A stretch of DNA of 46,700 nt from a virus: IMG/VR virus record IMGVR_UViG_3300005467_000015, positions 1-46,700 of that record, one strand, 5' to 3'. Positions within the stretch are counted from its first letter, which is position 1. Each line of letters begins with the position of its first letter. The notes beneath the pieces were generated by a model. That model saw only the letters and a program-made list of their open reading frames with translations, searched no databases and had not been told where the DNA came from. Shown in pieces: positions 2,342 to 46,700 of the stretch. The position numbers and the translations under genes are program-made.

Positions 2342-2358
2342 GACACACTCCTTCGACG

Positions 2359-3351: not shown

Positions 3352-3722
3352 TCGCAAAGCTCCTTGATAAAACGCTCGGCGCAGACGCGATACGCACGCT
3401 CTCTGACCGCGTTCATCACGAAACTAACCGGGCTGAGATTGGAGATTCGTCCTTGCACCAGATTGATAGCCACTTGATCAGCTTCGTCATCGGTGATTTC
3501 ATCGAACAGGATTTGTACGAAGTCATCCCAGTAGGGAGAGGTTTGCAACTGTTTCAGGCTCTCCCGCAATCTGCGTTCAGCCATATCGAGATTGGCCTCT
3601 TTTGGCTCCGGTGGATTCACCGGCCGCTCCGGCTCTCTCTGGTAAAACGTAGGCGTTGACTTATTCAGCATGGGTGCAAACATCTCGTTTAGACAGACGG
3701 TTAGAATTTCGGTGGAGTTCAT
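3348..3722 (-). CDS. first gene of the leftward early operon, unknown function
   Basis: 124 aa beginning MNSTEILTVCLNEMF. A GAGG 8 nt upstream supports this start; an in-frame ATG at 3749 would add 9 residues but lacks a ribosome site. The protein is acidic and helical, with a Pro-rich linker (REPERPVNPPEPKE). It is the promoter-proximal gene of the leftward operon, facing the Cro-like gene across a ~120-bp divergent control region. Function unknown. Confidence 0.75.
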   Translation of the reverse strand: MNSTEILTVCLNEMFAPMLNKSTPTFYQREPERPVNPPEPKEANLDMAERRLRESLKQLQTSPYWDDFVQILFDEITDDEADQVAINLVQGRISNLSPVSFVMNAVRERAYRVCAERFIKELCE

Positions 3723-3790
3723 TCCTGCGCCCTCGGTTGTGGTTGCCATGGAAGCAATCCTATATCATGCAACGGCTATGCGCAAGGTGC

Positions 3791-3819
3791 TTGCGGAAAA
3801 TATTTTCATCGTTTAGAAT
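3791..3819 (+). promoter_or_regulatory. sigma70-like promoter for the rightward early operon
   Basis: TTGCGG (3791-3796), a 17-bp spacer and TAGAAT (3814-3819) end 25 bp before the ATG of the Cro-like gene. Position, spacing and the divergent gene layout match a lambdoid pR-like promoter. No promoter of comparable quality is obvious for the leftward gene. Confidence 0.6.
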
Positions 3820-3844
3820 CAGTGCATACAAACGAGGAATAACC

Positions 3845-4030
3845 ATGAAGTCTAAAGAGGTATTCAAACATTTCGGTGGCAAGATGGAGACGGCCAGGGC
3901 TTTAGGAATCAGTCATCAGGCTATCTATAAATGGGGCGCTGATGTTCCTTATATCAGCCAGCTATTAATCCAAGAGCTAACCGATGGAAAGTTTAAGGCC
4001 GACAAACACCCCGCGCTGAGGAATAAGTGA
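3845..4030 (+). CDS. cro: Cro-like repressor
   Basis: 61 aa. It has the P22-type Cro layout: a short N-terminus (MKSKEVFKHFGGKMETARALGIS), then a recognition-type helix (HQAIYKWGADVPYISQLLIQEL), then a basic tail ending HPALRNK. Such proteins bind operators in a divergent early control region and turn down early transcription. It is first behind a sigma70-like promoter, and the opposite strand starts the recombination operon, just as expected for Cro. No cI-like gene is seen on the opposite strand. ATG 3845 has AGGAA upstream. Confidence 0.85.
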   Translation: MKSKEVFKHFGGKMETARALGISHQAIYKWGADVPYISQLLIQELTDGKFKADKHPALRNK

Positions 4031-5061: not shown

Positions 5062-5071
5062 GAGCAATAGC

Positions 5072-6061: not shown

Positions 6062-6065
6062 ACGC

Positions 6066-6260: not shown

Positions 6261-6308
6261 AATCAACGATCTATTCAAAACAGTAGGATAGAGAGGGTAA
6301 GCCTTAAA

Positions 6309-6509: not shown

Positions 6510-6530
6510 TCGACATTTAGAGGGCTTTAT

Positions 6531-6963: not shown

Positions 6964-7031
6964 TAAGCATCATCAGCATAGCGGGTGTTGCCTGGCTATT
7001 ACTATTATGGATGATCTTCAAGGATTTATAG
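6954..7031 (+). CDS. 25-aa membrane peptide
   Basis: MDVISIISIAGVAWLLLLWM... is one strongly hydrophobic helix ending in a short basic/acidic tail. It overlaps the end of the zinc-ribbon gene and is the last gene of this rightward run before the gene-free stretch. Confidence 0.4.
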   Translation: MDVISIISIAGVAWLLLLWMIFKDL

Positions 7032-7149
7032 CAAGGTTATGGAGTTTAGTGTTTTTCGATAACTTGCCTAAACTTCCTATACATAAGTTAACGGTCGCGC
7101 ATCACCTGCGCGGATTTCTGCCTAAATTATTAATAACTGGTTAATTAAT

Positions 7150-7574
7150 AATAGATTTTCGGTGCGCGGCGAGAGAGAAAATAGCCGGTCCCGCTGCGTT
7201 GGCTATCCGAGGAAGCACTCAGGAGCGCTTATCACCAGGCTTGGGAATCCGGCATAGGTTCGCCGGTTTACGTCCGGCAACGAAATTGGCTCCAGCGCGC
7301 CTTACCCCTCCTAACGGAGCATGCTTCACGCCAGAACTCCCGCGATGCTTAGAGGTGGGAGGTTTCGTTTAACGTCCGGCGACGGTGCTAAGCCCACCGC
7401 CCCTATCCCAAACAGTACTTGAGAGTCAGGCAGGGCGGCAGGCTTTGCGCGATGGCCAATCTATTCGGCAAACTCGCACTGAGCTACGAGCGTTATGGAA
7501 TTCGAATAACGAATCCTTTGCCTTATTCATCATCGCATCCCTCCCCACCCATCACGACGGGGCTGGACAAGCCA
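7150..7574. other. 425-bp gene-free stretch with many hairpins
   Basis: There is no convincing gene on either strand between 7032 and 7574, and the base composition becomes GC-richer. Perfect hairpin stems include ATAGCC 7181-7186 with GGCTAT 7201-7206, CCGGC 7249-7253 with GCCGG 7262-7266, CTCC/GGAG with loop TAAC (7308-7319), CGGTG/CACCG (7383-7399) and CGTTAT 7491-7496 with ATAACG 7506-7511. A motif, TTTA(A)CGTCCGGC(A/G)ACG, occurs at 7267-7282 and 7368-7384. It may be a structured RNA (strand unknown), a replication origin or decayed sequence. Confidence 0.4.
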
Positions 7575-7937
7575 TTATACGAACAATTTGTCTTCGTACA
7601 ACTTCTGACGTAACAGATACCCTTCCAATGCCCAAATCTTGTTGCGGGCATTGTCCCAGGCAATCTTCCGGCCTAGCTCCATGTCGAAGTTCTCGGGAGA
7701 CGCGCAGGCACTCTCACCAACCACGCTGTAACCGTTTTTGAGCGATAACAGGCATACGGTAGTGGTTGAGCCTGGGAATACATGGTAATACTCTCCGACG
7801 ATCGTAGCGTCGATGAGAGCGGGATTCAGGCGGGGAGCGTTCAGGTTCTTGGCTTGGACTTCAGATTCAACAGCGGTTTCGTCTCTCATTGCGTCTTCCT
7901 CTGTGGGTTCAATGGCCGGCTTAATCCGGTCAGCCAT
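7575..7937 (-). CDS. Gp49/Gp66-family phage protein
   Basis: 120 aa. The C-terminal ~75 residues match the conserved phage Gp49/66 pattern: VGEYYHVFPGSTTTVCLLSLKNGYSVVGESACASPENFDMELGRKIAWDNARNKIWALEGYLLRQKL. The N-terminal ~35 residues are a variable acidic linker. The family is widespread in tailed phages and has no known activity. The gene lies on the leftward strand, in an island of three leftward genes inside the rightward region. Confidence 0.9.
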   Translation of the reverse strand: MADRIKPAIEPTEEDAMRDETAVESEVQAKNLNAPRLNPALIDATIVGEYYHVFPGSTTTVCLLSLKNGYSVVGESACASPENFDMELGRKIAWDNARNKIWALEGYLLRQKLYEDKLFV

Positions 7938-25898: not shown

Positions 25899-27700
25899 TG
25901 AGTAGCGCATTTCGCGTCTTAGGCCCCACCACGTATGCCGGTTCACTCGACCGGCTGTCTCCCGTGGTGCACGGTTCTACAACGCCAGCTACTTATAAGT
26001 GCGGGGTCTATTATTTTCCCGGTTGGTCCACGCCCGGAGGCGGCCCGAATCCTTCCGACCCCTGGCCCCTGATCACGCCCTATCCCGATCGGATTCCCCT
26101 GGCCCTCGGGCAATATGACGAGACCAATCAAACTGTCGTCGATACACAGCTGAATTGGATGTATCAGTACGGGGTGACGTTCGTTGCTATCGACTGGTTC
26201 ATGCAATGGAGTGGGTCCACTCTTCAGCCTTATTTAGATCACGTCATTACCAAATACCTGACATCAGCGGTTTCCAAACCCCTGTTCTGTATTCAGTTCG
26301 CCAACCAAACGAATGCGGGGGGATTAAATACTTCAACCGCACATTCTCTGTGGGATTACTGGATAGCGAACTATTTTGCCGATTCCAACTACTACAAAAT
26401 AGGCAATAAGCCTGTCGTTATCATTAACAGCGGGCCCACCCTGAGAAATAACTTCGCCAGTCATGCTGAAGTTAAATCTGCCTTCCTGGATGCGGGTGAT
26501 GCCGCTGCGGTTACGGCAGGGTATGCCGGTATCCATTGGATGGATGGTCAGGCTGACTCGAGCAGTGCCTGGATTGATGTTAGCGATCCGGCTCATGGGT
26601 GGACCGGAGTCACGGGGTCGAATGTCTACACCACCACCAAAGTCAGTGACAATTCCGCCGGCCCGAGTCCAACGACCTATGCCGATCTGGACAATGCTGT
26701 CTTTTCTGGTTTGGTTGGTGGCTATCGGGGCTTCTGTTATGGCTGGATGAACGATCCCGACATCACCGTATTCTGGCCACCTCTGACTGCAGGCTTTGAT
26801 AGCACCCCCTGGAGCCCCTCCACAACACTCCACGGCATGCCCACCAGTGCAGAGTGGGGTACCCATTTAAGCAACGCTAAGACCCTCCTAGACGCCAACG
26901 CCACCCAGACTCAGCTGACGTTCATGATTGAGGCGTGGAACGAGTTTGGCGAAGGGTCGATTCTCTGCCCCACGGTAGGCAATGGCGGATTTGATCGACT
27001 CAGACAGTTAAATAGCACTTTCTCACTCAATGCCGCCGATATGACCCCGGCGGCATTTAGCTTTACAGATGTCACTAGCGCAACCATAAGCACTGTTTAC
27101 ACATCAAACACGATCACGGCGACCAGTATTGATGTCACGGGGGAATATTCGGTTAGCGGAACTGGAGTCACTGTCAGCAAGAATGGCGGGGCCTATAGCG
27201 CAGATCCAGGTATTTACGTCGTTAATGACACCTTTACCTTAAGGCTGACCTCGGCAGCGACGGGTAATGTAGCCACCAGCGGGACTCTTACCCTCAGTGG
27301 TGTCAGTGATACTTATACTGTCACTACAGCCAATACAGCCCCGACCAATATCACTCTTAGCAACAGTTCAGTCCTGACCACCAGCGGTGTTAATGCCGTT
27401 GTTGGCACCTTGTCCACCACCGATATCGATATTGGACAAACCTACACCTATACCTTGGTTGCTGGAACAGGCAGTACCAATAATGCCTCCTTCAATATTT
27501 CTGGCGCCAACCTGAGAGTGAACGATCCCAATGCTTTAGGAGCGGGAAGTTATTCAGTCCGCATCCAAACAGATGATGGATCAGCCACTTTTGCGAAAGC
27601 CTTCTCCATTGATGTATTCGGCCCATCCACTGGCCGTGGATTGATAAAATCTATTGAACGAAATATGATCATTGCATTAGAGCGGCCTGTGGCCGTCTGA
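25898..27700 (+). CDS. GH99/WbsX-like glycosidase fused to cadherin-like domains (receptor-binding depolymerase)
   Basis: 600 aa. Residues ~25-370 have the GH99/WbsX-like (alpha/beta)8 pattern: GVYYFPGW near the start, IPLALGQYDETNQTVVDTQLNWMYQYGVTFVAIDWF, KPVVIINSGPTLR, and EAWNEFGEG (345-353) carrying the Glu pair expected for catalysis. Members act on mannan-type or O-antigen-like glycans. After ~380 come two Ig/cadherin-like units (SATISTVYTSNTITATS..., then NTAPTNITLSNSSVLTTSGVNAVVGTLSTTDIDIGQTYTYTLVAGTGST). A short C-terminal tail (RGLIKSIERNMIIAL) follows. Best reading: a tail-associated enzyme degrading a surface polysaccharide. Substrate unknown. Confidence 0.8.
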   Translation: MSSAFRVLGPTTYAGSLDRLSPVVHGSTTPATYKCGVYYFPGWSTPGGGPNPSDPWPLITPYPDRIPLALGQYDETNQTVVDTQLNWMYQYGVTFVAIDWFMQWSGSTLQPYLDHVITKYLTSAVSKPLFCIQFANQTNAGGLNTSTAHSLWDYWIANYFADSNYYKIGNKPVVIINSGPTLRNNFASHAEVKSAFLDAGDAAAVTAGYAGIHWMDGQADSSSAWIDVSDPAHGWTGVTGSNVYTTTKVSDNSAGPSPTTYADLDNAVFSGLVGGYRGFCYGWMNDPDITVFWPPLTAGFDSTPWSPSTTLHGMPTSAEWGTHLSNAKTLLDANATQTQLTFMIEAWNEFGEGSILCPTVGNGGFDRLRQLNSTFSLNAADMTPAAFSFTDVTSATISTVYTSNTITATSIDVTGEYSVSGTGVTVSKNGGAYSADPGIYVVNDTFTLRLTSAATGNVATSGTLTLSGVSDTYTVTTANTAPTNITLSNSSVLTTSGVNAVVGTLSTTDIDIGQTYTYTLVAGTGSTNNASFNISGANLRVNDPNALGAGSYSVRIQTDDGSATFAKAFSIDVFGPSTGRGLIKSIERNMIIALERPVAV

Positions 27701-27709: not shown

Positions 27710-28021
27710 ATGGCCAGTTATGGAACGCTTTCTGCCGATGGCACAACCGATCTGCAATGGATCGATGGGCCATTTGTCTTCAAAGCCAATGGAACCTGGG
27801 GCTCTGGGACTTTCACCGTCTATTTCAAATCTAAGACCGGGAGTTATAAAAGCTGGGTCACTGCGACTGCTCTTACTTCGGATGCTACAGGTCAGCTTTT
27901 ATACGATGTTCCACGTGGAACACTGCTTACCGTCAAGGCTACTCTGGCCGGCTCAACTACCCCCAGTCTTGCATGGGAATTCATTGGGCCCAATGTGCAT
28001 CCCGCACCGAACGAAACCTAA
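27710..28021 (+). CDS. small beta-rich structural protein
   Basis: 103 aa: SADGTTDLQWIDGPFVFKANGTWGSGTFTVYFKSKTGSYKSWVTATALTSDATGQLLYDVPRGTLLTVKATLAGSTTPSLAWEFIG. It looks like a single beta-sandwich of the kind used as minor head or tail decoration. It contains the first perfect parS palindrome (27907-27922), reading V-P-R-G-T. It follows the glycosidase gene by 9 bp. Confidence 0.65.
   Translation: MASYGTLSADGTTDLQWIDGPFVFKANGTWGSGTFTVYFKSKTGSYKSWVTATALTSDATGQLLYDVPRGTLLTVKATLAGSTTPSLAWEFIGPNVHPAPNET
27907..27922. other. perfect parS-type palindrome, copy 1
   Basis: TGTTCCACGTGGAACA is identical to the 16-bp chromosomal parS consensus of many Proteobacteria, bound by ParB. It lies inside the coding sequence of 27710-28021. 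The same 16 bp recur at 38644-38659. Confidence 0.75.
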
Positions 28022-28088
28022 TCATTGATGCTATGAATTAACACTTCATTGCCCGTTAATAATGAAAAATAATGAATAGGATTAACAT

Positions 28089-28133
28089 ATGAAGAAGAAA
28101 GGGAAGGGTAAACCCAAGCCGATGCCTTGCTAA
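28089..28133 (+). CDS. 14-aa Lys/Pro-rich mini-gene
   Basis: MKKKGKGKPKPMPC, preceded by AGGATTAAC. It is very short, but the composition is that of similar mini-genes seen between phage structural genes, and a second Lys/Pro-rich peptide is encoded at 18578. It lies alone in a 153-bp gap before the terminase genes. Confidence 0.35.
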   Translation: MKKKGKGKPKPMPC

Positions 28134-28174
28134 CATAGTGGCATTATGTTTTTCAGACGTTTAATTGAGTCAAC

Positions 28175-28453
28175 ATGGCCGCACCAAAAGGGAACCAAAA
28201 CGCAGTAAAAGCCAAGATTTGGTCTGATCGACTTCGACAGCAAATTGAGGAGAGAAAGCTTTGGCCACAACTGGCTGATGCCCTATTAGCCAAAGCTCTA
28301 GAGGGTGATGTGGCTGCCTTAAAAGAGGTAGGCGATCGGATTGAAGGTAAAGTCGCTCAAGCCATTATTGGTGGCGATCCAGACGATAATCCTATTTACA
28401 TTGTGGAGCGCACCATTGTCCGCCCGGCGCAAACTCATGATTCCAACAGCTGA
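28175..28453 (+). CDS. terS: terminase small subunit
   Basis: 92 aa. The N-terminal MAAPKGNQNAVKA is the usual opening of a phage small-terminase family. The body (RLRQQIEERKLWPQLADALLAKALEGDVAALKEVGDRIEGKVAQAI) is a helical oligomerisation region. It recognises the packaging site and loads the large subunit. It overlaps the large-subunit gene by 17 bp. Confidence 0.85.
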   Translation: MAAPKGNQNAVKAKIWSDRLRQQIEERKLWPQLADALLAKALEGDVAALKEVGDRIEGKVAQAIIGGDPDDNPIYIVERTIVRPAQTHDSNS

Positions 28454-29732
28454 GGTGTTTGAACCTCTGCTGGCCCCCGCTCGCTATAAAGGGGCGTGGG
28501 GTGGGCGTGGATCGGGGAAGTCTCACTTCTTTGCAGGCGCTATGGTTGAGGACTCGGTATGTGAGCCCGGCGAGAATGGCGGCCAAGGCCTATTGTCTGT
28601 TTGTATTCGTGAAGTCCAGAGGGACTTATCACAATCCTCAAAACTTCTGCTTGAGCAAAAGCTTCGCGATTTCGGATTGGGCGAATCAGATGGATTCAAG
28701 GTTTACCATGACCGAATTGCAACGCCTGGCGATGGGTTAATCATTTTCAAGGGGATGAAGGATTACACGGCCGAATCCATAAAATCTCTGGAAGGGTTTA
28801 AGCGCGCTTGGTGGGAAGAGGCACAGGTGGCTTCGGCAACATCGCTCAGTCTATTACGGCCAACTATCCGTGCCGCAAATTCTGAACTCTGGTTCAGTTG
28901 GAATGCACGGCGGCGCACAGACGCCGTTGATATTTTATTGCGAGGCCAAGAGCTGCCAACAGGCGCTGTCGTGGTTGAGGCGAACTGGCGCGATAACCCA
29001 TGGTTTACGGGCGTGCTGGAACAGGAGCGTCAGGATTGCCTGCGCACTGACCCGGATGAGTATGACCATATCTGGGAGGGTGGTTATATCACCTTTGCGA
29101 AGGGGGCTTACTATGCTACGCATCTTGCACAGGCCAAACTGGATGGTCGGATAGGGTTTGTTCCTCCTGACCCATTGATGACCATTCGTCTATTTGTGGA
29201 CATTGGAGGTACTGGGGCAAGAGCAGATGCGTTCACAATCTGGGCCGTTCAATTTATCGGTCTGGAAATTCGCCTGTTGAAATATTATGAAGCGGTGGGC
29301 CAGCCGATTGCTACGCATCTGGCCTGGCTTAGACAACAGGGATATACGCCAGATAAAGCTCAAATCTGGTTGCCCCATGACGGCGCAAGTAATGACAAGG
29401 TTTACGATGTGTCCTATGAGTCCGCATTGCAATCGGCAGGTTATAGCGTGACTGTAGTTCCCAACCAAGGGAAAGGTGCCGCCTCAGCGCGCATAGAAGC
29501 AGGACGCCGTTTATTTCCATCAATGCGATTTGATAAAGACGGCTGCGAAGGCGGCCTTGAGGCATTGGGCTGGTATCACGAGAAGAAAGATGACATCCGC
29601 AATATTGGTTTAGGGCCAGAGCATGATTGGTCTAGTCATGGCGCCGATTCTTTCGGTTTAATGGCCATTGTACATGCGCCGCCCAGCGGTAAGCGTGAAC
29701 CTATTAAATATCCCAAGGCTAAAGTCGCATGA
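28437..29732 (+). CDS. terL: terminase large subunit
   Basis: 431 aa from ATG 28437. The longer frame back to 28341 lies inside the small-subunit gene. Walker A GGRGSGKS at residues 22-29; Walker B region FKRAWWEEAQ at ~120-129. The nuclease domain shows LFVDIGGTGARADAFTIW (first catalytic Asp), QIWLPHDGAS (middle Asp) and EHDWSSHGADSFGLMA (C-terminal Asp). It drives ATP-dependent packaging and cuts the concatemer. P22-like or BPP-1-like neighbours point to headful packaging. Confidence 0.95.
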   Translation: MIPTAEVFEPLLAPARYKGAWGGRGSGKSHFFAGAMVEDSVCEPGENGGQGLLSVCIREVQRDLSQSSKLLLEQKLRDFGLGESDGFKVYHDRIATPGDGLIIFKGMKDYTAESIKSLEGFKRAWWEEAQVASATSLSLLRPTIRAANSELWFSWNARRRTDAVDILLRGQELPTGAVVVEANWRDNPWFTGVLEQERQDCLRTDPDEYDHIWEGGYITFAKGAYYATHLAQAKLDGRIGFVPPDPLMTIRLFVDIGGTGARADAFTIWAVQFIGLEIRLLKYYEAVGQPIATHLAWLRQQGYTPDKAQIWLPHDGASNDKVYDVSYESALQSAGYSVTVVPNQGKGAASARIEAGRRLFPSMRFDKDGCEGGLEALGWYHEKKDDIRNIGLGPEHDWSSHGADSFGLMAIVHAPPSGKREPIKYPKAKVA

Positions 29733-31783
29733 CCCAGATGTCAGAAAGTGATCTGCTGAAGTTTCTCGACTCTGCGCAAGCGGATGCCGTGAAGTATAAC
29801 GGCGAGTTCATGAAAACGAATGAGATGCTGCTGGATTATTATCTCGGCAATCCTTATGGCGATGAAGTTGAGGGGCAGTCGCAAGCTATCTCCACCGACG
29901 TGGCGGATGTAATCGAAGCGGATATGCCAAGCCTTGCTCGCATCTTTCTCGGATCGCATGATATTCTGGAATTTACAGCAAACACGAATAATCCCGAGGA
30001 AGAAAAAGAAGCTGACGAGAAAACAAAATACATTAATTGGTTGGTAAGAAACCAGCCGACCAGCTTCAAGACCATTCATGACTGGCTCAAGAATGCAGAG
30101 ATTCAAAAGTTCGGCGCGGTAAAGTTTTATATCGATGAACAAGAGACGCCTGACGAAAAGACCTACAAGGGATTATCGGCCGATGAATTCGCTTTATTAA
30201 AAGAAGATTTGAAATCCGGGCGTGGCAAGGAAATGAAAGTCCTCAGCGAGGAGGAGGTAGATGGTGCATTCGATGTGAAATTCCGGATTACCACGAAGAA
30301 GAAGAAAGTCGTCATTCAGAGTGTGCCGGTCGAAGATTTCATTATCACGCGCAATGCAACCAGCAAGGACAAAGCTGAATTAGTCGGTGATATTTATATT
30401 GCTACTCGTGGACAGTTAATTGCTCAAGGTTTTCCAAAAGAGAAAGTCGCTCTGATTCCCAAGAAAGGCCAAGACTCCAATAGCTCTCGCATGAAGGATA
30501 TTCGCTTTGCCGATCAAGGCGGATTTGTCGAGCTTTCCAGTACAGAATTGAACGAAGAGGTGCAAATCTGCAATCTGTTTCCTCTGGTTGATTTCGATGG
30601 CGATGGGATTCCCGAGCGCAGAAACATTGTTCGTGGTGGCCCCATTATCTTGCAGAATGAAGCCTACGGGATTGTGCCTTACGCCATCTTCTCCACTATT
30701 CTAATGCCAGACAGTGCAATTGGTAGAAGTCGTGCTGAAATCACCAAGCCTACTCAATACATAAAGTCTCATCTTTATCGTCAAATCCTAAACAATATCT
30801 ATCAGGTCAATAAGCCCCGCACGGCGATCGACGATTCGCAGAATGGTGGCGTCGATATGGATGATCTATTGACCCAGCGGCTCGATGGGATTGTCCGTTG
30901 TTCAGGCAGCCCCTACGAAAAGATCATGCCGTTGGTTACCCCCTACATTGGGGATAAAGCGCTACAGGTTGTTCAATATATCGACTCGGCGCGGGCCCAA
31001 TCCACAGGATCCTTAATGGCCTCTCAAGGGCTATCGATCGATGATCTGCATAAGGAGACGGCTACCCGATTTGAAGGCGTAGAGGACGCCTCAGAGGCCA
31101 AGATCGAGTTAGTGGCTAGAGTACTGGCTGAAACGGGATTCAGGGAGCTGTACGAGGGCCTAGCTTGGCTGGTCTCACACTATCAGGATGAGGCCACCGA
31201 GATTAGAGTCCTTGGTAAACCCCTGACAATTGATCCCACCAAATGGCGTTATGAACATTATTGTGTATCAAACGTCGGTTTAGGGGCCGGGGATACCCAG
31301 GAAATCCTCCAGAATATGAGCGGAGTCCTATCCATCCAGCAACAGTTAATGGCTATCCAAAGCCCTTTAGTCGATAGTAAAAAGGTATACAATACAGCCA
31401 CACGAATCATTAAGGCGATGGGATTAAGCCGGGTCTCGGACTTCTTCAACGATCCCGAGCAGCCACAAGAAATCTTGCTGGCCCAGAATGAGATTCTGAA
31501 GCAAGCGGTTCAGGCCTTGCAGCAGCAGATGCAGAACCCCCTGGCGGAGGCTGAGAAAATCAAAGCCCAAGCGAAGATCATGGTGGATGGCGCTAAACAG
31601 CAGGGGGATATGGCGATTGAGGAAGCCAGACAGACCTCAGACCTCAATAAGTTCCTGCTGAAACTGGCCTCTGATCAAGAGCAATTCAGACGAGATATGG
31701 CGCTTAAATTGACTGAGTTGGAACTCAAATATCAGCAAGGCTCCCAAGAGCAGACTGCAGATATTCCGGGGTCTTTGGTATGA
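29729..31783 (+). CDS. portal protein
   Basis: 684 aa, a P22/BPP-1-type large portal. Landmarks are YYLGNPYGDEVEGQSQAISTDVADVIEADMPSLARIF at the N-terminus, VPVEDFIITRNATSKDKAELVGD, the PLVDFDGDGIPERRNIV loop, PYAIFSTILMPDSAIGRSRAE, and a long C-terminal barrel-type coiled coil (QQQMQNPLAEAEKIKAQAKIMVDGAKQQGDMAIEEARQTSDLNKF). It forms the dodecameric DNA channel. Start overlaps terL (ATGA). Confidence 0.93.
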   Translation: MTQMSESDLLKFLDSAQADAVKYNGEFMKTNEMLLDYYLGNPYGDEVEGQSQAISTDVADVIEADMPSLARIFLGSHDILEFTANTNNPEEEKEADEKTKYINWLVRNQPTSFKTIHDWLKNAEIQKFGAVKFYIDEQETPDEKTYKGLSADEFALLKEDLKSGRGKEMKVLSEEEVDGAFDVKFRITTKKKKVVIQSVPVEDFIITRNATSKDKAELVGDIYIATRGQLIAQGFPKEKVALIPKKGQDSNSSRMKDIRFADQGGFVELSSTELNEEVQICNLFPLVDFDGDGIPERRNIVRGGPIILQNEAYGIVPYAIFSTILMPDSAIGRSRAEITKPTQYIKSHLYRQILNNIYQVNKPRTAIDDSQNGGVDMDDLLTQRLDGIVRCSGSPYEKIMPLVTPYIGDKALQVVQYIDSARAQSTGSLMASQGLSIDDLHKETATRFEGVEDASEAKIELVARVLAETGFRELYEGLAWLVSHYQDEATEIRVLGKPLTIDPTKWRYEHYCVSNVGLGAGDTQEILQNMSGVLSIQQQLMAIQSPLVDSKKVYNTATRIIKAMGLSRVSDFFNDPEQPQEILLAQNEILKQAVQALQQQMQNPLAEAEKIKAQAKIMVDGAKQQGDMAIEEARQTSDLNKFLLKLASDQEQFRRDMALKLTELELKYQQGSQEQTADIPGSLV

Positions 31784-32067
31784 CGAGCAGCAATGATTTG
31801 CGATTGGCCGAGGATAGTGATCGGGGCAAGAAAGCCCTCATGATCCTCAACAACCCGATTTATCAAGAATCTCTGCTGGCCATTCGCGGGGAATTAATGA
31901 ACGCTTTTGAATTGACAAAATCGGATGATTCGAAAGCCCGGGATGAAATCTGGCGAAAATTACAAATTGTCGGCTGGTTTGAAAACCATATCAGACGGGT
32001 AATGCAAACCGGAAAACTGGCTGATGAAACCCTGATGCAAAAAGTCAAACGCACGATGAGACTGTGA
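31780..32067 (+). CDS. small protein between portal and scaffold, unknown
   Basis: 95 aa, helical (LRLAEDSDRGKKALMILNNPIYQESLLAIRGELMNAFELTKSDDSKARDEIWRKLQIVGWFENHIRRVMQTGKLADETL). This size and composition commonly occur between portal and scaffold in P22-like and BPP-1-like phages. Function unknown. Confidence 0.75.
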   Translation: MTSSNDLRLAEDSDRGKKALMILNNPIYQESLLAIRGELMNAFELTKSDDSKARDEIWRKLQIVGWFENHIRRVMQTGKLADETLMQKVKRTMRL

Positions 32068-32068
32068 C

Positions 32069-32908
32069 ATGACCGAAAAAGTCCTGAGCGATTTGTTATA
32101 CAGCGATCCCGTGGTCAAGGAGCCTACGCCAACCGAGGCCGCGATCGTTGAAGAGCCTGTTGTTGAAGAACAGCAGGAGGAAGTGCCCGAGACTGAAACG
32201 GTCGAGGGAGAAACGTCAGAGGCCGAAGAAACCACCGACGAGGTCGATGAAGAAACCGAGCAAACCCACACCGTGAAAATCCGCGGTGAGGAGAAGACGG
32301 TCAACCTCAAAGAACTCAAGAACGGGTATCAGAGGAACGAAGACTATGCCATAGCCACGCGCGAGCTGAAGGACAAAGAAAAGGTTGTCCTCGAAAAGGC
32401 TTCCAAGGCCGACGAAACCCTGAAGGTCTTAAATGACATCACGGGTGAATTGGACGCGCTGATTATGGGTGATGTGAAAAACATCAATTGGGATGAGCTG
32501 CGCCAATCCGATACCGCAGAATATTTGCGGCTGAAGGAAGTGGTGGACGAGCGGAAGAAAACCTTGAGTGGCTTGGTTGAGAAGCGCAACCAAATCATTA
32601 AGGAAAAAACCGCTGCGGAATCCGAGGCGCTGCATAAAGCATTGGGTTGGAATACGGATGCAGTCAAGAAAGAGGCCGATATCAAGCAGTTGACAGAATA
32701 CATGGCCAGTGAGGGCATTACCGAACAGGTGACTAGCTCGAAACTGATGGCATCGATTCTGAAGGCAGCGAAATACGACCAGCTGCAGAAAACGCGGAAG
32801 GAGACTACGAAGGAAGTAAAAACTCCTCAAAAAGTCACCAAGCCCGTCCCCAAACCCAAACAGGCTGCTCCCAAGTCACTCGAAGATCGACTCTATGCTA
32901 ACTCTTGA
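32069..32908 (+). CDS. scaffolding protein
   Basis: 279 aa. The N-terminal ~70 residues are highly acidic (EEPVVEEQQEEVPETETVEGETSEAEETTDEVDEETEQ). A helical middle (KIRGEEKTVNLKELKNGYQRNEDY..., EYLRLKEVVDERKKTLSGLVEKRNQI) follows, and a basic C-terminus (KETTKEVKTPQKVTKPVPKPKQ) of the type that binds the coat protein. It is positioned directly before the major capsid gene. It directs procapsid assembly and is lost from the mature head. Confidence 0.85.
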   Translation: MTEKVLSDLLYSDPVVKEPTPTEAAIVEEPVVEEQQEEVPETETVEGETSEAEETTDEVDEETEQTHTVKIRGEEKTVNLKELKNGYQRNEDYAIATRELKDKEKVVLEKASKADETLKVLNDITGELDALIMGDVKNINWDELRQSDTAEYLRLKEVVDERKKTLSGLVEKRNQIIKEKTAAESEALHKALGWNTDAVKKEADIKQLTEYMASEGITEQVTSSKLMASILKAAKYDQLQKTRKETTKEVKTPQKVTKPVPKPKQAAPKSLEDRLYANS

Positions 32909-32918
32909 GGATTAACTT

Positions 32919-33917
32919 ATGGCCACTATCGGCTCTAGCGTACTTACGCTGTCGGACTGGGCGAAACGCCTTGATCCGGATGGCACGACTGCTGACATCG
33001 TGGAGATGTTGGCGCAAGACAATGCAATCCTGGATGATGCCATGTGGAAAGTGGGCAACCTGCCTACCGGCCACCAGGCAACGATCCGCACCGCTCTGCC
33101 CTCTGTTGCCTGGCGACTGCTGAACCAGGGTACGGCGCCCAGCAAATCCACCACAGCGCAAGTCAGCTTCCAAACCGGCATTCTGGAAGCGTGGTCGGAA
33201 ACCGATGTTGACGTCGCCAATCTCAACGGCAATGTGAAATCCTTTCGCCTGAGCGAAGCCAAGGCATTCGTAGAAGCGATGGCGCAGGAAGTCGCACAGA
33301 CCATGATCTATGGCACCGCTGCAGCGCCTGAGGAGTTTGTGGGCCTAGCCTCTTACTACGATTCTCTCACCGATAACAGCGGCGAGAACATTGTGGATGC
33401 GGGTGGCACCGGGTCGGACAATATGTCTATTTATCTCGTGGGCTGGGGTGATCGATCGATTTACGGGATTTTCCCGAAAGGGTCGAAAGCCGGTATCGAT
33501 CATGAGGACCTGGGGATTGTCACGGTCGAAACCACGGCAGGCATTGCGGGCAACCGGATGCGCGCCTATCAAGACCATTGGAAGTGGAAGCCGGGTCTGG
33601 TGGTAGAAGATTGGCGGTACGGCGTACGGATTGCCAATATCGACAATTCCGCCCTGCTGGCGGACGGTGCAGGCTCTTCGGTCAAGCTGATCGAATACAT
33701 GATCGGCGCTATCCACAAGTTGTACAAAACCTCGGGCGTGAACTTGGCGTTTTATGCCAACCGCACCGTCTCGAAAATGCTGGATATCCAGGCGCAGAAC
33801 AAGGCTAACGTCTATCTGCAAGCGGGTATGGAGGAAGGTAAGCGCAAGCTGACTTTCCGCGGCATTCCCATCCGCACGGTCGATGCTTTGACGATCGCCG
33901 AAGCGCGCGTTGTCTAA
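32919..33917 (+). CDS. major capsid protein (P22/BPP-1-type)
   Basis: 332 aa. LTLSDWAKRLDPDG...VEMLAQDNAILDDAMWKVGNLPTGHQATIRTALPSVAWRLLNQGTAPSKSTTAQV matches the N-terminus of BPP-1-type major capsid proteins, and the later EEFVGLASYYDSLTDNSGENIVDAGGTGSDNMSIYLVGWG is equally typical. It folds as an HK97-type subunit. A strong ribosome site (TTGAGGATTAACTT) precedes the ATG. Confidence 0.95.
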   Translation: MATIGSSVLTLSDWAKRLDPDGTTADIVEMLAQDNAILDDAMWKVGNLPTGHQATIRTALPSVAWRLLNQGTAPSKSTTAQVSFQTGILEAWSETDVDVANLNGNVKSFRLSEAKAFVEAMAQEVAQTMIYGTAAAPEEFVGLASYYDSLTDNSGENIVDAGGTGSDNMSIYLVGWGDRSIYGIFPKGSKAGIDHEDLGIVTVETTAGIAGNRMRAYQDHWKWKPGLVVEDWRYGVRIANIDNSALLADGAGSSVKLIEYMIGAIHKLYKTSGVNLAFYANRTVSKMLDIQAQNKANVYLQAGMEEGKRKLTFRGIPIRTVDALTIAEARVV

Positions 33918-33930
33918 CGGGAGAATCATC

Positions 33931-34407
33931 ATGTACGTAGACGCACAACAACTCTTCTCCGATGCTCAGGCAGTAACTACTGACGCCGTGGGGACCAATG
34001 TCATCGATCTTTCGTCTGACCGGAGCATTGGGAATGGCGAGCCGATGGCGGTCGTTTTCGTGATTGATGTGGCCGCTGATCAAACCACGGGCGATGAGGA
34101 TTATACCTTCGATGTGGAGTATGCCTCGAATGCCGCTCAAACCACGGGCCGTCAATTGATTGGGCGTCGTGTTTTTGAATCGGGTACTCCCACTGCGCCG
34201 GCGCAAGATGCCGATCTGCTGGTGGCCGGATTCAAATTTACGATTCCCATCCCGCCGACCGCTCTATCGGAGAGTGAGCGCTATCTGGGTGTGCGTTATG
34301 ACACCACAGGCACCACGCCCACTATCACGGTGACCTCATTCCTCATCCCGCAATCGATGATCGATATGAGTGAACCGACCTATCCCAATGCTTATTTGGT
34401 AGGTTGA
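33931..34407 (+). CDS. Bbp16-family capsid cement protein
   Basis: 158 aa from ATG 33931, preceded by GGGAGAATCATC. MYVDAQQLFSDAQAVTTDAVGTNVIDLSSDRSIGNGEPMAVVFVIDVAAD and FKFTIPIPPTALSESERYLGVRYDTTGTTPTITVTSFLIPQSM give the jelly-roll pattern of Bbp16 of Bordetella phage BPP-1, a decoration protein that strengthens the capsid. It lies directly after the capsid gene, as in BPP-1. Confidence 0.88.
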   Translation: MYVDAQQLFSDAQAVTTDAVGTNVIDLSSDRSIGNGEPMAVVFVIDVAADQTTGDEDYTFDVEYASNAAQTTGRQLIGRRVFESGTPTAPAQDADLLVAGFKFTIPIPPTALSESERYLGVRYDTTGTTPTITVTSFLIPQSMIDMSEPTYPNAYLVG

Positions 34408-34408
34408 T

Positions 34409-34579
34409 ATGGGCATACTGGTTCGGGCTATAAAGCTGGGCTGGTATGGCAAACAACGACGCCGTCCGGGCGCCGAGTTCGAGATTAAAAGTCTGCAAGA
34501 ACTCGGCGCTTGGATGGTGCGCGTTAATAAGCCAGGTCCGAAGAAGAAACCGGAAGATGACGAGTCGACCGATGAATGA
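34409..34579 (+). CDS. 56-aa small protein between cement and adaptor genes
   Basis: MGILVRAIKLGWYGKQRRRPGAEFEIKSLQELG..., with a basic N-terminal half and an acidic C-terminus (KKPEDDESTDE). Short proteins beginning LGWYGKQRRRPG-like occupy this slot in several phages. The stop overlaps the adaptor ATG (ATGA). Confidence 0.7.
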   Translation: MGILVRAIKLGWYGKQRRRPGAEFEIKSLQELGAWMVRVNKPGPKKKPEDDESTDE

Positions 34580-35202
34580 CGATACAAACATATGCCGAGC
34601 TGAAAACAGCGATTCAGGACTGGTCTAAACGGTCTGATACGAATAGTCTGCTCGATACATTTATCGATATTGCCGAGGCGGAAATGTATGCCAACGGCCA
34701 AGAATCTCTACGTATTCGCGATATGGAAGTGGCGACTACCGGGGTCACAAGTATTACGACCCGGTATATGGCACTTCCCACCCGCTATCTGGAATTTCGC
34801 CGCCTCAAAATCAATTTGACACAGGGTGATTTGAGGCTGCAGTTTGCGCCCATCGATCAGATGCGTATTTCACCCACTTCAGGATTGCCGAAATTCTTTA
34901 CGGTGACCTCCCAAGTGGAGTTTGATCGGATCAGCGATACGGTGTACACGCTGGGTATTGATTATTACCAGTCGCTGGCTCCCTTGACGGCCGCTGCACC
35001 GACTAATGCCATTCTGACCCGATTCCCCACTATTTACCTCTGGGGCTCGCTTGCAGCGCTGTACCAATGGGCTGTTCAGCCTGACAAGGCGGATTATTAC
35101 TACACCCAATTTCTCGGGGCCATTGGCAAAGCGAACATGCAGGATCGCAAAGGGCGTTATGGCCCGGCGCCCGCCATCAAGATGGAAGGGCCGACACCAT
35201 GA
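34576..35202 (+). CDS. head-tail adaptor protein (P22 gp4-like)
   Basis: 208 aa. TYAELKTAIQDWSKRSD...LLDTFIDIAEAEMYANGQESLRIRDMEVATTGVTSITTRYMALPTRYLEFRRLKI is the usual start of adaptor proteins bound beneath the portal. Later parts have PTNAILTRFPTIYLWGSLAALYQWAVQPDKADYYYTQFLGAI. It forms the ring joining portal and tail. Confidence 0.88.
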   Translation: MTIQTYAELKTAIQDWSKRSDTNSLLDTFIDIAEAEMYANGQESLRIRDMEVATTGVTSITTRYMALPTRYLEFRRLKINLTQGDLRLQFAPIDQMRISPTSGLPKFFTVTSQVEFDRISDTVYTLGIDYYQSLAPLTAAAPTNAILTRFPTIYLWGSLAALYQWAVQPDKADYYYTQFLGAIGKANMQDRKGRYGPAPAIKMEGPTP

Positions 35203-36593
35203 AAACCGTTCCGGTGGAAGTGGCAGGACCCTCGTATAAAGATCGATCCAATCAATTGTCTAACCAGAAGACCCAGAATATGTATCTAGGTCCTGGCCGT
35301 GAAACAAAATGGTGCGCCTATGACTTTTATGGCTGTAAAGCGTTTATAACGAGGGCCGGCACTAATAGAGGGTTCCATGTATTTAATGAGTCGCTCTATC
35401 AAGTCGCTGGAAACTCTCTCATGCTGATTAATAGCGCGGGCTCCGTCACCGTGCTGGGTACCATTACGGGATCGCAACGGTGTTTATTCGATGACGATGG
35501 GCTGAATATTTTCATCACCACCGGGAATGATGTTTTCAAATACAACGGTACTACAGTTTCCTTGGTGACCAGTGCCAACTTGGAAACGCCAAACAGCGTG
35601 AGTTATTTGAATGGATTCTTTCTCTATGATGGTGATGAAGGTCGGTTTCAGGCATCCGATTCGGGTGATGGCGGGACAATTAATGATTTGTCAGTTGGAG
35701 TAGCCAATTCTAACGGCGACGATATTATGCGAGGCATTTCGCATGATCAAATTATTTATTGGTTCGGTCCCCGTTCGATAGAGCCATGGTATTTTAGCGG
35801 TTCAGGTGATCTTCCCTTTGAGCGTTTGGAGCAAGGAATTATCGAGATTGGCCTGGGCGCCACTTATTCCATTGGTGAAAATAAAGATGTCATGGTTTTT
35901 CTGGGCTCTGATCGACAGTTCTATAAACTCTCGCAATCCGTGGCTGAGCCCATTTCAACGCCGGCCGTTAGAGAGGTGGAGGGATTTGACACTATCTATG
36001 ATGCAATTGGCTGGTGTTTTGTGCTGGAAACACAGCAATTCTATTGGGTCACATTCCCCACCGAATCAAGAACTTTTCTTTATTCCATCACATTAAACTA
36101 TTGGGTGGAGCTGTCCTTTGGGATGAATGGCGAAAGACATTTAGCCGATGCCTATGCTTTCTGTTATGGGAAACATCTGATTGCTGATTACCGCAATGGC
36201 AATATTTATGAGCTGGATAAAGACACATTTACCGATAATGGAGAAGCCAGGCTCAGAATACGTGATATGGCGCCGATTACAGGCGGTCAATTGGGCATAC
36301 CAGGAAATCGGGTCATTTGTGGACGTCTACAGATTGATATGGAGGTTGGTGTGGGATTGGCTGTTGGCCAAGGCGTTGACCCTGAAATCATGTGCCGTTA
36401 TTCCAATGATGGGGGAAAGACTTTTGGCGCTGAAGAACAAGTTTCTATCGGTGTAATGGGAAATTATGGCAAGCGCGTGGATTTCTTTAAGTTCGTGGAT
36501 GGGTATTCCATCGTTCCTCGGATCTTATGCACTGATCCTGTTTATCTCTCCCTATTCGCTGGGTTTGCGGATATTGAAGACGGAGGATTCTAA
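35199..36593 (+). CDS. packaged DNA stabilisation protein (P22 gp10-like)
   Basis: 464 aa with a beta-propeller-like layout (QNMYLGPGRE...LYQVAGNSLMLINSAGSVTVLGTITG, YFSGSGDLPFERLEQGIIEIGLGATYSIGENKDVMVFLGSDRQFYKLSQ, GFDTIYDAIGWCFVLETQQFYWVTFPT, DYRNGNIYELDKDTFTDNG). P22 gp10 forms the hexameric hub that closes the tail and keeps DNA in. Position after the gp4-like adaptor matches. Start overlaps the previous stop. Confidence 0.9.
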   Translation: MKTVPVEVAGPSYKDRSNQLSNQKTQNMYLGPGRETKWCAYDFYGCKAFITRAGTNRGFHVFNESLYQVAGNSLMLINSAGSVTVLGTITGSQRCLFDDDGLNIFITTGNDVFKYNGTTVSLVTSANLETPNSVSYLNGFFLYDGDEGRFQASDSGDGGTINDLSVGVANSNGDDIMRGISHDQIIYWFGPRSIEPWYFSGSGDLPFERLEQGIIEIGLGATYSIGENKDVMVFLGSDRQFYKLSQSVAEPISTPAVREVEGFDTIYDAIGWCFVLETQQFYWVTFPTESRTFLYSITLNYWVELSFGMNGERHLADAYAFCYGKHLIADYRNGNIYELDKDTFTDNGEARLRIRDMAPITGGQLGIPGNRVICGRLQIDMEVGVGLAVGQGVDPEIMCRYSNDGGKTFGAEEQVSIGVMGNYGKRVDFFKFVDGYSIVPRILCTDPVYLSLFAGFADIEDGGF

Positions 36594-36934
36594 TGGTTTC
36601 TGTTAATCCGCCGCCCCTAAAAGTGCCTGCCGCCTTCCGCAAGGATGCTGAAGTGAACGGGGCATACAGTGCTTTGTTAACGGTTGTTCGCCAGCTATGG
36701 GCGCGCACAGGTGGGGCTGACGATGCCATTGAGGGGAATATCACTTTCACTTCCTTGTCCGATGGTACGAATGCGTTTTTGTTACAGCGGATTGATGAGC
36801 TTGAAAGACGGTTGGCACTTGTTTCTTCGCAACTGAATCGTTACGAATCATTAATCGATAAGATGGCGCATAAGCAGCGCCCCCCCATAATTCCTGAGGA
36901 TGCCATTAAACTGGCAGTATTAAAACATGGATGA
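36593..36934 (+). CDS. small tail-associated protein with coiled coil
   Basis: 113 aa: N-terminal VSVNPPPLKVPAAFRKDAEVNGAYSALLTVVRQLWARTGG, a central short beta stretch, then a coiled coil (FLLQRIDELERRLALVSSQLNRYESLIDKMA). Such proteins often sit between hub and needle genes. Starts in the previous stop (TAATG). Confidence 0.7.
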   Translation: MVSVNPPPLKVPAAFRKDAEVNGAYSALLTVVRQLWARTGGADDAIEGNITFTSLSDGTNAFLLQRIDELERRLALVSSQLNRYESLIDKMAHKQRPPIIPEDAIKLAVLKHG

Positions 36935-37292
36935 TATGACGAAATTATCAATAGCCAAGCAGCCGCCGGCACAAACAGCCATGTGTATCATGATGCCGGA
37001 TGGAATGGTGCATCATGCGCGTATTTGGATGGGCACTACTACTACAACAGGGGGTGCGTGGACTGTTGATTATACCGAAGCCTCCTTTACCAAGGCGCCT
37101 ATGGTTTTTCCCGTCATCCAGTTATCGGATACAGACATATTTGATCGTGGTATGGCCAGTCTGAGTTCAGCACCTACAGCTGCATCAGCTTCAGGTTATG
37201 GAGTACGAGGAGCCAACTTATTGGTTTTGGGGGCAACCGTGCGAACGGTTCCTGATGGCACAACTGTTCATATCATTGCATTAGGAGCCTGA
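36927..37292 (+). CDS. small beta-rich structural protein
   Basis: 121 aa: MPDGMVHHARIWMGTTTTTGGAWTVDYTEASFTKAPMVFPVIQLSDT...GANLLVLGATVRTVPDGTTVHIIALGA. The layout resembles the C-terminal domain of tail fibres or spikes (TGGxWTxDYTxAxFTxxPxVxP). Probably a tail appendage part. Function inferred from neighbours. Confidence 0.65.
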   Translation: MDDMTKLSIAKQPPAQTAMCIMMPDGMVHHARIWMGTTTTTGGAWTVDYTEASFTKAPMVFPVIQLSDTDIFDRGMASLSSAPTAASASGYGVRGANLLVLGATVRTVPDGTTVHIIALGA

Positions 37293-37293
37293 G

Positions 37294-37638
37294 ATGGCTG
37301 TCACTTATAAATCACTGGATTTAAACGATCAAATCACGGCAACGACCACGACAGTTGATACATTATTCACATCTACAAGTGGCGTAGCACAAATCAATAC
37401 AGCCACGGCCTATAACAACTCCGCCAGTTCAGTGACTTTGTTCTGTTATATATTGGCGGCAGGGGTGGCAGCAAGTGCGGTCGATCCAGCATGGCGACAA
37501 GATATCCCTGCGAACAGCTCAGCGATTCTGACGGGGCTCATTGGTCATGTGATTCCCAATTTGGGCTCGTTGGGGGCTTATGCGGGGACGACGAATGTGA
37601 TCCGAGTTACGGTATCGGGCATTGAGATTGTGAACTAA
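37294..37638 (+). CDS. small beta-sandwich structural protein
   Basis: 114 aa: LDLNDQITATTTTVDTLFTSTSGVAQINTATAYNNSASSVTLFCYILAAGV...GTTNVIRVTVSGIEIVN, all beta. Similar small proteins lie near capsid-decoration or tail genes of phages. Starts 2 bp after the preceding stop. Confidence 0.65.
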   Translation: MAVTYKSLDLNDQITATTTTVDTLFTSTSGVAQINTATAYNNSASSVTLFCYILAAGVAASAVDPAWRQDIPANSSAILTGLIGHVIPNLGSLGAYAGTTNVIRVTVSGIEIVN

Positions 37639-38018
37639 TGCAATTAGTGAATAGAGATTTTGCGCAAAGCCTGCTGAATGATCCCCTCTTTGGATCGTTC
37701 TGGGCCGAGCTGGGAGGCCCTATACGCCTTCCCGAGACATTCCATTATCTCTATGAGCCGGGCGTCGGATTGTTCGTTATAGAGCCGCTCCTGCAATGCC
37801 ATGGCATCCATGTGGCCACTTATCCATCAAGTCGGGGCAAAGCCGCTGTAGAGGCGGGTAAACAGGCGATTGAATGGGTTTTAGGCCAATCGGGCAAAGC
37901 GCTAGCCCGGGTTCGTAAAGGTCAGCCCGAAACACGATTCTATGCAGCCCAATGTGGCATGAAACGGTATACGACCGATGAAACCCATGTTTATTATGAG
38001 GTGGTGAAATGTCATTAG
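37638..38018 (+). CDS. GNAT-fold-like head assembly protein (DUF2824-like)
   Basis: 126 aa: LLNDPLFGSFWAELGGPIRLPETFHYLYEPGVGLFVIEPLLQCHGIHVATYPSSRGKAAVEAGKQAIEWVLGQSG...[26 protein letters not shown]. The strand/helix order (SSRGKAAVEAG..., ARQCGMKR) matches GNAT folds; phage members of DUF2824 are annotated as head assembly proteins. Acetyltransferase activity is not shown by the sequence. Confidence 0.7.
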   Translation: MQLVNRDFAQSLLNDPLFGSFWAELGGPIRLPETFHYLYEPGVGLFVIEPLLQCHGIHVATYPSSRGKAAVEAGKQAIEWVLGQSGKALARVRKGQPETRFYAAQCGMKRYTTDETHVYYEVVKCH

Positions 38019-38818
38019 GAGCTTATTTGGTGGGCGGCGAGGACCTAGCCAAGAAAACCTCATTGGGCTATCACATCAGCGGTATGGCCGGCGAGGATGC
38101 AGCTAATGCAGCTGCTGATACCCAAGCGGCAGCCGGTAGGGATGCCATTGCGCTCACGAGAGAAACTCGGGATATTGCCCGGTCTGATCTGGCGCCTTTC
38201 CGGACTTTTGGCCAAAATAATCTGGGGGGATTACAGGACATCTTATCGCCACAAGGCCAGGCGGATTATCTGAAAAATAATCCTCTATTCGGTATCGCCA
38301 TGGATAATCTAAATCGGCAATCCAACAATACCTTTTTAGGGAGAGGCAAGCTGGGCGATGCGACCGGACAATTAGTCAATAATGCCTTCCTGGCTGGCCA
38401 ACCTTTATTGCAGAACCAAACATCCAATCTTTTCAATGCGGTCAATCTGGGTCAGGCATCAGCAGCTGGACAAGCAAATACATCGCTCCAGTCTGGGAAT
38501 ACTATTAATGATCTGATTACAGGCATTGGCAATTCTCAGGCGGCGGGATTGGTGGGGGGCGCCAATTCACGGCAGCAGGGTGCCGGTAATGCGGTGGGAT
38601 TGTTGGGTGCCCTTTTCTCCGATCGTCGCCTTAAGAGAAATATTGTTCCACGTGGAACACATGGGAAATATCCCATTTATGACTTCCGGTATATATGGTC
38701 GGATGAATGGTATAGAGGGGTGATGGCCGATGAAATCAGGCTGATCAATCCCGAAGCCGTTATCCAGCACTCATCGGGTTATGACATGGTGAATTACGCC
38801 ATGCTGGAGGGCCAATAA
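38009..38818 (+). CDS. ejection/structural protein with S74-like C-terminal chaperone motif
   Basis: 269 aa. Its Ala/Asn/Gln-rich body ([47 protein letters not shown]) is typical of P22 gp7/gp20-type internal virion proteins. The end, [65 protein letters not shown], has the SDRRLKxxI start and intramolecular-chaperone layout of S74 proteins but lacks an obvious complete cleavage site. It contains the second parS palindrome. Confidence 0.75.
38644..38659. other. perfect parS-type palindrome, copy 2
   Basis: TGTTCCACGTGGAACA again, in the gene at 38009-38818 and coding for V-P-R-G-T, as in copy 1. The two copies share only this block; surrounding bases differ. Confidence 0.75.
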
Positions 38819-40308
38819 TGCCCATTGATTGGTCTATTCCTCTACAAACCCAAACAGTGGATGCGACAGGCGTTCTCAATCAGGGCTTGTTAGCCCGGGC
38901 CCGCTATGATCAGGCGCAGCAGCTGAAAAAAGATGAGCCCTACCGCCAGCGGATATTGGAGTCTCAGGCGAAAAGCGCCGAATTACAAAATACCGCAGCC
39001 AGTCAACAACAGCTGGGCGATGAGGATAAATCGGTCATCCTAGGATCGGCTGCAGTGCAGCAGTTCCTGAATCGTAATGATATGGCTGGGGCTAAATCCT
39101 ATTTGACCCAGCGCAAAGCCCAGCTTCAGCAATTGGGGCTCAGCACTTCGCACACCGATCAAGCCCTGCAACTCATTGATCAGGACCCGAATCAGCTCAA
39201 AAGCCTGGTCGATCAGAATGTCGAAATGGGCGCACGATTGGGGCTGTTTGGCAAAGCCCCTGCCCCCACGAACGAACAGCAGAATCTGGAAGCCTTGGGG
39301 TATAAGCCGGGAACACCGGAATATGCCCAGGCATTTCAGAAAATCTACGGCAAGGCCGATCCCAATACATTGACCCCTTATCAGCAATCACAGCTGGCCA
39401 TTGATAATGCCAGGCTGAAATTGGAGCAGGATAAGTTTAATCGAGGCGAGCCCAATAAACCGCCGGCGGGCTATCGTGCCAATCCCGATGGAACGCTTTC
39501 GTTCATCCCCGGCGGCCCTGCCGACCCCGCCACAGGCCGAAATAATGCCGTGCCTAGTGAGGGTGAGCGTAAAGCGGGTACGTTATTGCACCGGCTGGAG
39601 TTTTCGCAGAAACAACTCACCGAGGCGATCGGCGATAAGCCAGACGCTGCAAAGCCTTCAGTACTTTCTGAAGCAGTGCGCTCCTTCCCACTGATTGGCG
39701 GCGATACACCTGCCAATCTATTGACGGGTGAGGCTCGTCAGCGGGTAGAGTCCGCTCAACTAGACCTGTTGGATGCCGCTCTGACTTTGGGTACAGGCGC
39801 GGCCTACACGAAAGAACAGCTTAGAGGTTATGCACGCAGCTATTTCCCGCAAATCGGGGATGGCAAGAAAGCAGTCGCTGACAAGCAAGAGCGGCTTCAG
39901 AATGTGATTTCAGCTGCGCGTATTGCGGCGGGCCGCGCAGCAGAGCTTGGCACTAATGATCCCGGTGTGCCCCGTGGCACACAAACACAGGGGATGACCG
40001 AGCCCGGCAATATTGATTTGAATGCGCGGCCGGTTGTCAAGAATGCTGACGGCTCCATCAGTACGGTGCGCTCTATTGGCGTAAACATTGGCGGTCAGGA
40101 AGTATTAATCCCCACGGTGAGCGATGACGGGAAAATCCTCAGTAATGCGGAGGCCATTGCGCTCTACAAAAATACAGGTAAGCATCTAGGTAAATTTAAT
40201 ACGCCTGAAGAGGCCACGGCCTACGCCAAACAGCTCCATAATGACCAAGCCAAACAATATGGCGCAAAACCCAGCCTCGATGATCTGGTAAAAAAGTATG
40301 CCGACTAA
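38818..40308 (+). CDS. internal virion / DNA ejection protein
   Basis: 496 aa. A long Gln/Ala-rich helical N-terminus ([46 protein letters not shown]) is followed by a central linker. The C-terminal ~100 residues ([83 protein letters not shown]) form a recurrent domain of phage internal and tail proteins. Likely ejected with DNA, like P22 gp20/gp16. Starts in the preceding stop (TAATG). Confidence 0.8.
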
Positions 40309-46253: not shown

Positions 46254-46363
46254 TTGAATCCCTGCAACAAGCACCAGATAATCAAGCTAATTCCCCATCC
46301 CATTGGCCAGCCTAAGGTTAGCAGGATGAATGGCCAATCTTTGTTAGTACGCAATGTTAACAT
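46250..46363 (-). CDS. 37-aa membrane peptide
   Basis: MLTLRTNKDWPFILLTLGWP... is one Trp-rich transmembrane helix (WPFILLTLGWPMGWGISLIIWCLL). It starts inside the last codons of the upstream coiled-coil gene and ends in an ATGA overlap. Function unknown. Confidence 0.5.
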   Translation of the reverse strand: MLTLRTNKDWPFILLTLGWPMGWGISLIIWCLLQGFK

Positions 46364-46700
46364 TCGGAATTACTTTTTTAGCAATCAGAGTGACAGCTAA
46401 CTTTGCGCACTCCTGGGTCATGCCGCCGACAACAAATCCTTCCATCGCTTCATTATTGATCCTGGCCAGATGGCGTTTATTTCGCTCACGAGCGGCTTGA
46501 TCAGCTGCTTCTTTGCGTCGGGCCTCTTCCTTCTCACGGTTGCTCTGATCGATAGCATCCTGAGCAGCTTTGGCTTCTCGAGCCTTGGAGTCGATCAACT
46601 CCTGCGCCGCTTTCGCTTCCATATCCTTGATCCGCTGTTCGGCATCCAGTCGATTCTGTTCGGCTTGCCTAGCCTCGTCAGCCAGTTTCTGCTCGCGATC
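46344..46700 (-). CDS. C-terminal part of a long coiled-coil phage protein, cut by the window end
   Basis: The frame is open from the last base (DREQKLADEARQAEQNR...) to TAA at 46344. It is Ala/Glu/Gln/Lys-rich coiled coil, then a small C-terminal domain (HLARINNEAMEGFVVGGMTQECAKLAVTLIAKKVIPNVNIAY). That ending is typical of phage coiled-coil proteins near recombination genes. It probably continues the gene whose N-terminus is at 766-1; see that entry for the frame problem at the join. Confidence 0.75.
   Translation of the reverse strand, partial: DREQKLADEARQAEQNRLDAEQRIKDMEAKAAQELIDSKAREAKAAQDAIDQSNREKEEARRKEAADQAARERNKRHLARINNEAMEGFVVGGMTQECAKLAVTLIAKKVIPNVNIAY

Follow-up and report, generated by a model that had tools for sequence, protein, structure and literature searches.

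Chromosomal-type parS palindromes in a P22/epsilon15-like phage genome with no ParA or ParB match: candidate docking sites for host ParB

The phage genome and its parS palindromes

The stretch of DNA analysed here (the window) is a 46.7-kb virus contig from IMG/VR, whose virion genes encode an SU10/P22-type portal, an epsilon15-type capsid, a scaffold, a head-closure protein and a gp7-like ejection protein, and whose early region carries ERF, YqaJ, NinB and a P22 Cro-like regulator (Table 1). The portal (PF23899), the major capsid protein (PF20911/NF045672) and the ejection protein (PHROG 598) are those of a P22/epsilon15-like podovirus, and the Cro-like regulator points to a lambdoid early region, although no integrase was found. 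Both contig ends fall within one gene for a coiled-coil protein, with the N-terminal half on the left (1–766) and the C-terminal half on the right (46344–46700); since they abut, we take the genome to be near-complete and circularly permuted, with at most a short gap, despite a record class of linear. A further gene at 17001–18308 encodes a TROVE/Ro60-like RNA-binding protein of 435 aa (PF05731, PHROG 850).

Several weak pointers suggest that the host is probably a gammaproteobacterium: the coiled-coil protein matches those of Pseudomonas temperate phages at roughly 40%, a SutA RNAP-binding domain and a PFL_1563 small protein were matched in the window, and one of the nearest portals lies on a Colwellia metagenome-assembled (MAG) contig. 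Domain searches of the window gave no match to ParB_N (PF02195), the ParA-type AAA_31 (PF13614), tyrosine integrase (PF00589) or resolvase (PF00239), in line with an earlier note on this DNA that had found neither parA nor parB in it.

Table 1 Features of the phage genome that bear on the parS palindromes.
Feature	Coordinates	Strand	Basis and remarks
P22 Cro-like regulator	3656..4030	+	Early region
103-aa ORF with site 1	27710..28021	+	No family match; predicted all-beta (pLDDT 60, low)
parS site 1	27907..27922	.	TGTTCCACGTGGAACA, perfect palindrome; VPRGT = residues 67–71 of ORF 27710–28021
Large terminase subunit	28341..29732	+	62.7% to EBPR podovirus 2
SU10/P22-type portal protein	29729..31783	+	Query used to find relatives
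P22 gp7-like DNA-ejection protein with S74-like C-terminus, with site 2	38009..38818	+	PHROG 598 and 6121, weak PF25688/PF13884
parS site 2	38644..38659	.	TGTTCCACGTGGAACA, perfect palindrome; VPRGT = residues 213–217, variable stretch, S74-like end of ejection protein
496-aa ORF adjoining ejection gene, with third VPRGT	38818..40308	+	VPRGT at 39966..39981
Degenerate third match	39966..39981	.	TGTGCCCCGTGGCACA, 13/16, also VPRGT, in ORF 38818..40308

The 16-bp palindrome of chromosomal-type parS (TGTTNCACGTGNAACA) occurs in the window in two exact copies with zero mismatches, as the earlier note had claimed, and these lie 10.7 kb apart in or beside late genes. The same sequence is wild-type parS2 and parS3 of Pseudomonas aeruginosa (PMC4368675) and a listed parS of P. 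putida (PMC7022226), so that its description as a chromosomal ParB site is borne out by identity to proven parS. Under Markov models of order 0–4 trained on the window, about 1 × 10−5 copies (0.7–1.1 × 10−5) would be expected per window and the probability of two or more by chance is roughly 3–6 × 10−11, and none of the shuffled window sequences reaches two exact 16-mers. The two sites are thus real and not a product of chance, as had been argued. They have 17 bp in common and unlike flanks outside these, which excludes a recent duplication.

Both copies read V-P-R-G-T in frame, again as claimed. The statement that both lie inside structural genes holds for site 2, which is in the gene of the P22 gp7-like DNA-ejection protein, and is unproven for site 1 because its ORF has no family match. 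In the predicted fold of this ORF, of low confidence (pLDDT 60), VPRGT falls in a loop between strands. Directly upstream of the ORF, at 25898–27700, lies a gene for a 600-aa WbsX-like protein of a glycosyltransferase family (PF14307).

The third VPRGT differs from the other two at the DNA level by three third-codon-position changes only, with which the palindrome is gone; it can be a decayed site, a protein-level repeat or motif, or chance. It bears on a reading in which VPRGT itself, as a turn or cleavage motif of virion proteins, is what recurs, and the codons spell parS twice by accident. Three copies in three late-region ORFs, one with other codons, would fit such a motif, as would the peptide context of site 1 (DVPRGTLLTV), which resembles the VPAGT-type peptides that are common in phage proteins and explain most matches of another palindrome (see below). 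Yet given VPRGT and the codon use of the phage genome, the exact 16-mer would arise with a probability of about 8 × 10−5 per copy, a palindrome synonymous for the same peptide, TGTACCACGTGGTACA, turns up once in viral contigs, and the one relative that can be aligned at site 2, in a variable stretch, has EKVDEDEYG and no VPRGT there. We regard this explanation as rather improbable.

Relatives of the phage

Relatives were collected by portal alignment, using the best 80 of at least 581 viral relatives plus 39 genome loci. The palindrome TGTTNCACGTGNAACA is absent from 131 loci (1.59 Mb; mainly portal-derived, mostly at 25–50% identity), and no parS was found in the closest viral relatives or the nearest named phages when their records were scanned in full. 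The closest relatives among the matches listed have 46–50% portal identity and lack the palindrome, with none found above 50%; searches with the ejection protein returned no relatives, and among isolate phages there were no near DNA matches. Ancestral conservation of parS in the family of this phage was accordingly rejected, and the sites appear to be lineage-specific, acquired by this lineage. That every sampled relative lacks the sites might also be read as pure coincidence or hitch-hiking without function, but we hold this to be highly improbable in view of the chance value for two copies given above and of the general over-representation of parS in phages.

Exact parS across viral contigs

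We scanned viral contigs for the exact 16-mer and found it in at least 120 stretches; three control palindromes were found in 1, 2 and 54. The single match belongs to TGTACCACGTGGTACA, in which the CACGTG core is kept, and the 54 to a centre swap, TGTTCCAGCTGGAACA, whose Markov expectation is 2.5–3 times that of parS. Most centre-swap matches read V-P-A-G-T and 41 of the 54 are inside ORFs of at least 600 nt; they are mostly explained by VPAGT being a common phage peptide. The raw excess of parS over this most permissive control is about twofold, before removal of the peptide cause. A 60–120-fold enrichment of parS, calculated from two of the control palindromes, was overturned by the 54 matches of the third.

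Among the matches listed, parS in phage DNA tends to be clustered and intergenic: 80 of the 127 sites fall in no ORF of 600 nt or longer, in contrast to the centre swap, and 11 of 120 parS loci hold additional copies (14 in all); no second control site was found in 447 kb of control loci, and no parS in 2.24 Mb of other phage loci. Fifteen of the 20 long ORFs that contain a site could be assigned to phage families, which include baseplate wedge, DNA polymerase, primase-helicase, terminase, connector and scaffold, and ParB_N is present in 1 of 50 parS-bearing viral records. With the exact 16-mer present in bacteria at a density of roughly 0.1 per Mb, host DNA may account for some of the short viral contigs. 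The 16-mer was found in 37 of 114 sampled gammaproteobacterial genomes, often paired about 620 bp apart, and once or twice in each of four Pseudomonas genomes.

A marine phage family shows how a viral match may be misread. Here an exact parS stands downstream of the capsid gene, but of the best 80 relatives only 2 have exact parS, 7 have TGTTCCACATGGAACA (either orientation) and 2 have TGTTTCACATGAAACA, in a post-capsid slot that overlaps the Mu-gpT-DE RNA (RF03012). In five loci (L075, L274, L280, L282 and L285) this RNA contains the palindrome or a variant one base away, which in several members forms its hairpin; in two others of the same family (L046 and L264) the palindrome lies outside it. 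Because of the variant hairpins and the RNA overlap, these sites were rejected as a clean conserved family of intergenic parS next to the major capsid gene. Since the palindrome can double as a Mu-gpT-DE hairpin, a viral parS match alone is no proof of parS.

The same overlap would speak for taking the palindrome as an RNA hairpin (UGUUCC-ACGU-GGAACA) or as the site of another DNA-binding protein. For the phage studied here we consider this very unlikely: the window has no Rfam match, at the sites or elsewhere, and both sites are mid-gene; in the marine family itself, the palindromes of L046 and L264 are outside the RNA; and the centre swap, whose 6-bp stem is identical, owes its frequency mainly to matches that encode VPAGT.

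parS in isolate phages

In BLAST searches, an 18-base parS core matched 153 phage records and its centre-swap version 36, with near matches and redundant records included in both counts. Exact parS occurs in complete isolates, with four copies in phi29, five in Pseudomonas phage SYP, three in a Xenohaliotis phage, two in P. putida phage Amme-3 (vB_PpuM-Amme-3) and one in P. aeruginosa phage KPP25, and ParB_N has no match in the whole records of these five phages. Amme-3 and another phage, KoPa-4, both have a third site with a single mismatch in addition to two exact ones. In SYP (vB_PpS_SYP, our locus L397), four sites fall in the first 8 kb (294–7670) and the fifth, at 107116, is at the opposite end of this 107-kb genome record.

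The relatives of phi29 keep its parS sites, except at 17063 in Goe6, where one base is mismatched; the corresponding place in Goe18 carries parS in reverse orientation, for which two matching changes are needed. At 17243, TGTTTCACGTGGAACA has become its reverse complement, TGTTCCACGTGAAACA, in one phage by two matching substitutions, and the site at 18760 is intact in a region of 76% identity.

A possible role for host ParB

According to a passage in PMC9437464 that cites Meijer et al. (2005, EMBO J), host Spo0J (ParB) helps to carry or trap the phi29 genome in spores. The window phage is like phi29 in having several chromosomal-type parS sites (four in 19.3 kb in phi29) on a genome without ParB_N, and phi29, too, has some sites in late genes and in a VxRGT frame, one of them just past its terminase gene. 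The two genomes are otherwise unrelated: phi29 infects a sporulating Firmicute, whereas the window phage belongs with the P22/epsilon15-like podoviruses, has a lambdoid early region and is not known to have a sporulating host, so the purpose of its sites must differ from that in phi29.

We favour, by a modest leaning, the reading that the parS sites of this ParB-less phage were placed by selection and are used by host ParB to move or position the phage genome. Judged from sequence, host ParB most probably docks on them; recruitment of host ParB, as the earlier note had proposed, is the best-supported reading, to which the VPRGT of the same genome with other codons is a partial counterpoint. 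We infer a host with such a ParB, its binding to both copies and all that follows binding. Host ParB would load on the phage parS as a CTP-dependent clamp and spread across the adjacent phage DNA, and host ParA, possibly with SMC, would then move or position the phage genome. This might serve to partition an extrachromosomal prophage or a carrier state, or to place replicating genomes; as the role of ParB we would put first the partition or positioning of a genome in which no integrase was found.

Host ParB might instead be bound for takeover, with phage genomes acting as decoys that draw ParB off the chromosome, or with ParB spreading to modulate late transcription. The position of both sites in or beside late genes, 10.7 kb apart, would suit such a takeover, and the parS-bearing phi29 is virulent (PMC9437464); titration, however, would be poorly served by two copies per genome, and ParB of P. 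aeruginosa is non-essential (PMC7022226), and we think takeover unlikely.

Use of host ParB by this phage is best read as a variant of the phi29 strategy and not as a ParABS module, since no ParA or ParB gene was found with the sites in this genome. Extrachromosomal mycobacterial prophages (PMC7157519) would offer a likeness in the partition of an extrachromosomal prophage, but they encode their own ParABS, whereas neither ParA nor ParB was found in the window phage. The chromosomal ParABS of Pseudomonas uses the same 16-bp site (parS2 and parS3 of P. aeruginosa, PMC4368675; P. putida, PMC7022226); unlike its sites, those in the window are phage-borne and 10.7 kb apart, on a genome with no match to ParB_N or AAA_31 and without parAB or oriC. 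Passages in PMC4697819 and PMC3573128 report a carrier state of P22 before lysogenization and describe no mechanism based on parS; the virion architecture of P22 is related to that of the window phage, and a link to its carrier state would be by analogy.

As parS without ParB is found here, in phi29 and in many unrelated phages, host segregation machinery is probably borrowed. We propose more tentatively, at a little under even chances, that borrowed parS without ParA or ParB is widespread, taken up in many independent events by tailed phages whose hosts have ParB and whose genomes ride on host segregation, with phi29 as the first known case and the window phage as a proteobacterial example; in the open-access literature we found no report of chromosomal parS across phages. 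If host ParB acts on phage DNA beyond phi29, even phages that lack partition genes could be passed on like plasmids or be given a set position in the cell. This would account for some integrase-less phages that look temperate, and it predicts ParB ChIP-seq peaks on infecting phage genomes.

Clustered sites in other viral contigs

Among the scanned contigs, a 28.9-kb viral contig without ParB_N (L106) has five exact parS at 4324, 6308, 8135, 9161 and 10442, at a spacing of 1–2 kb. Five further loci (L050, L072, L100, L109 and L110) carry a tandem of TGTTCCACGTGGAACA and TGTTTCACGTGAAACA about 24 bp apart, upstream of a gene, which is kept despite differing neighbouring DNA.
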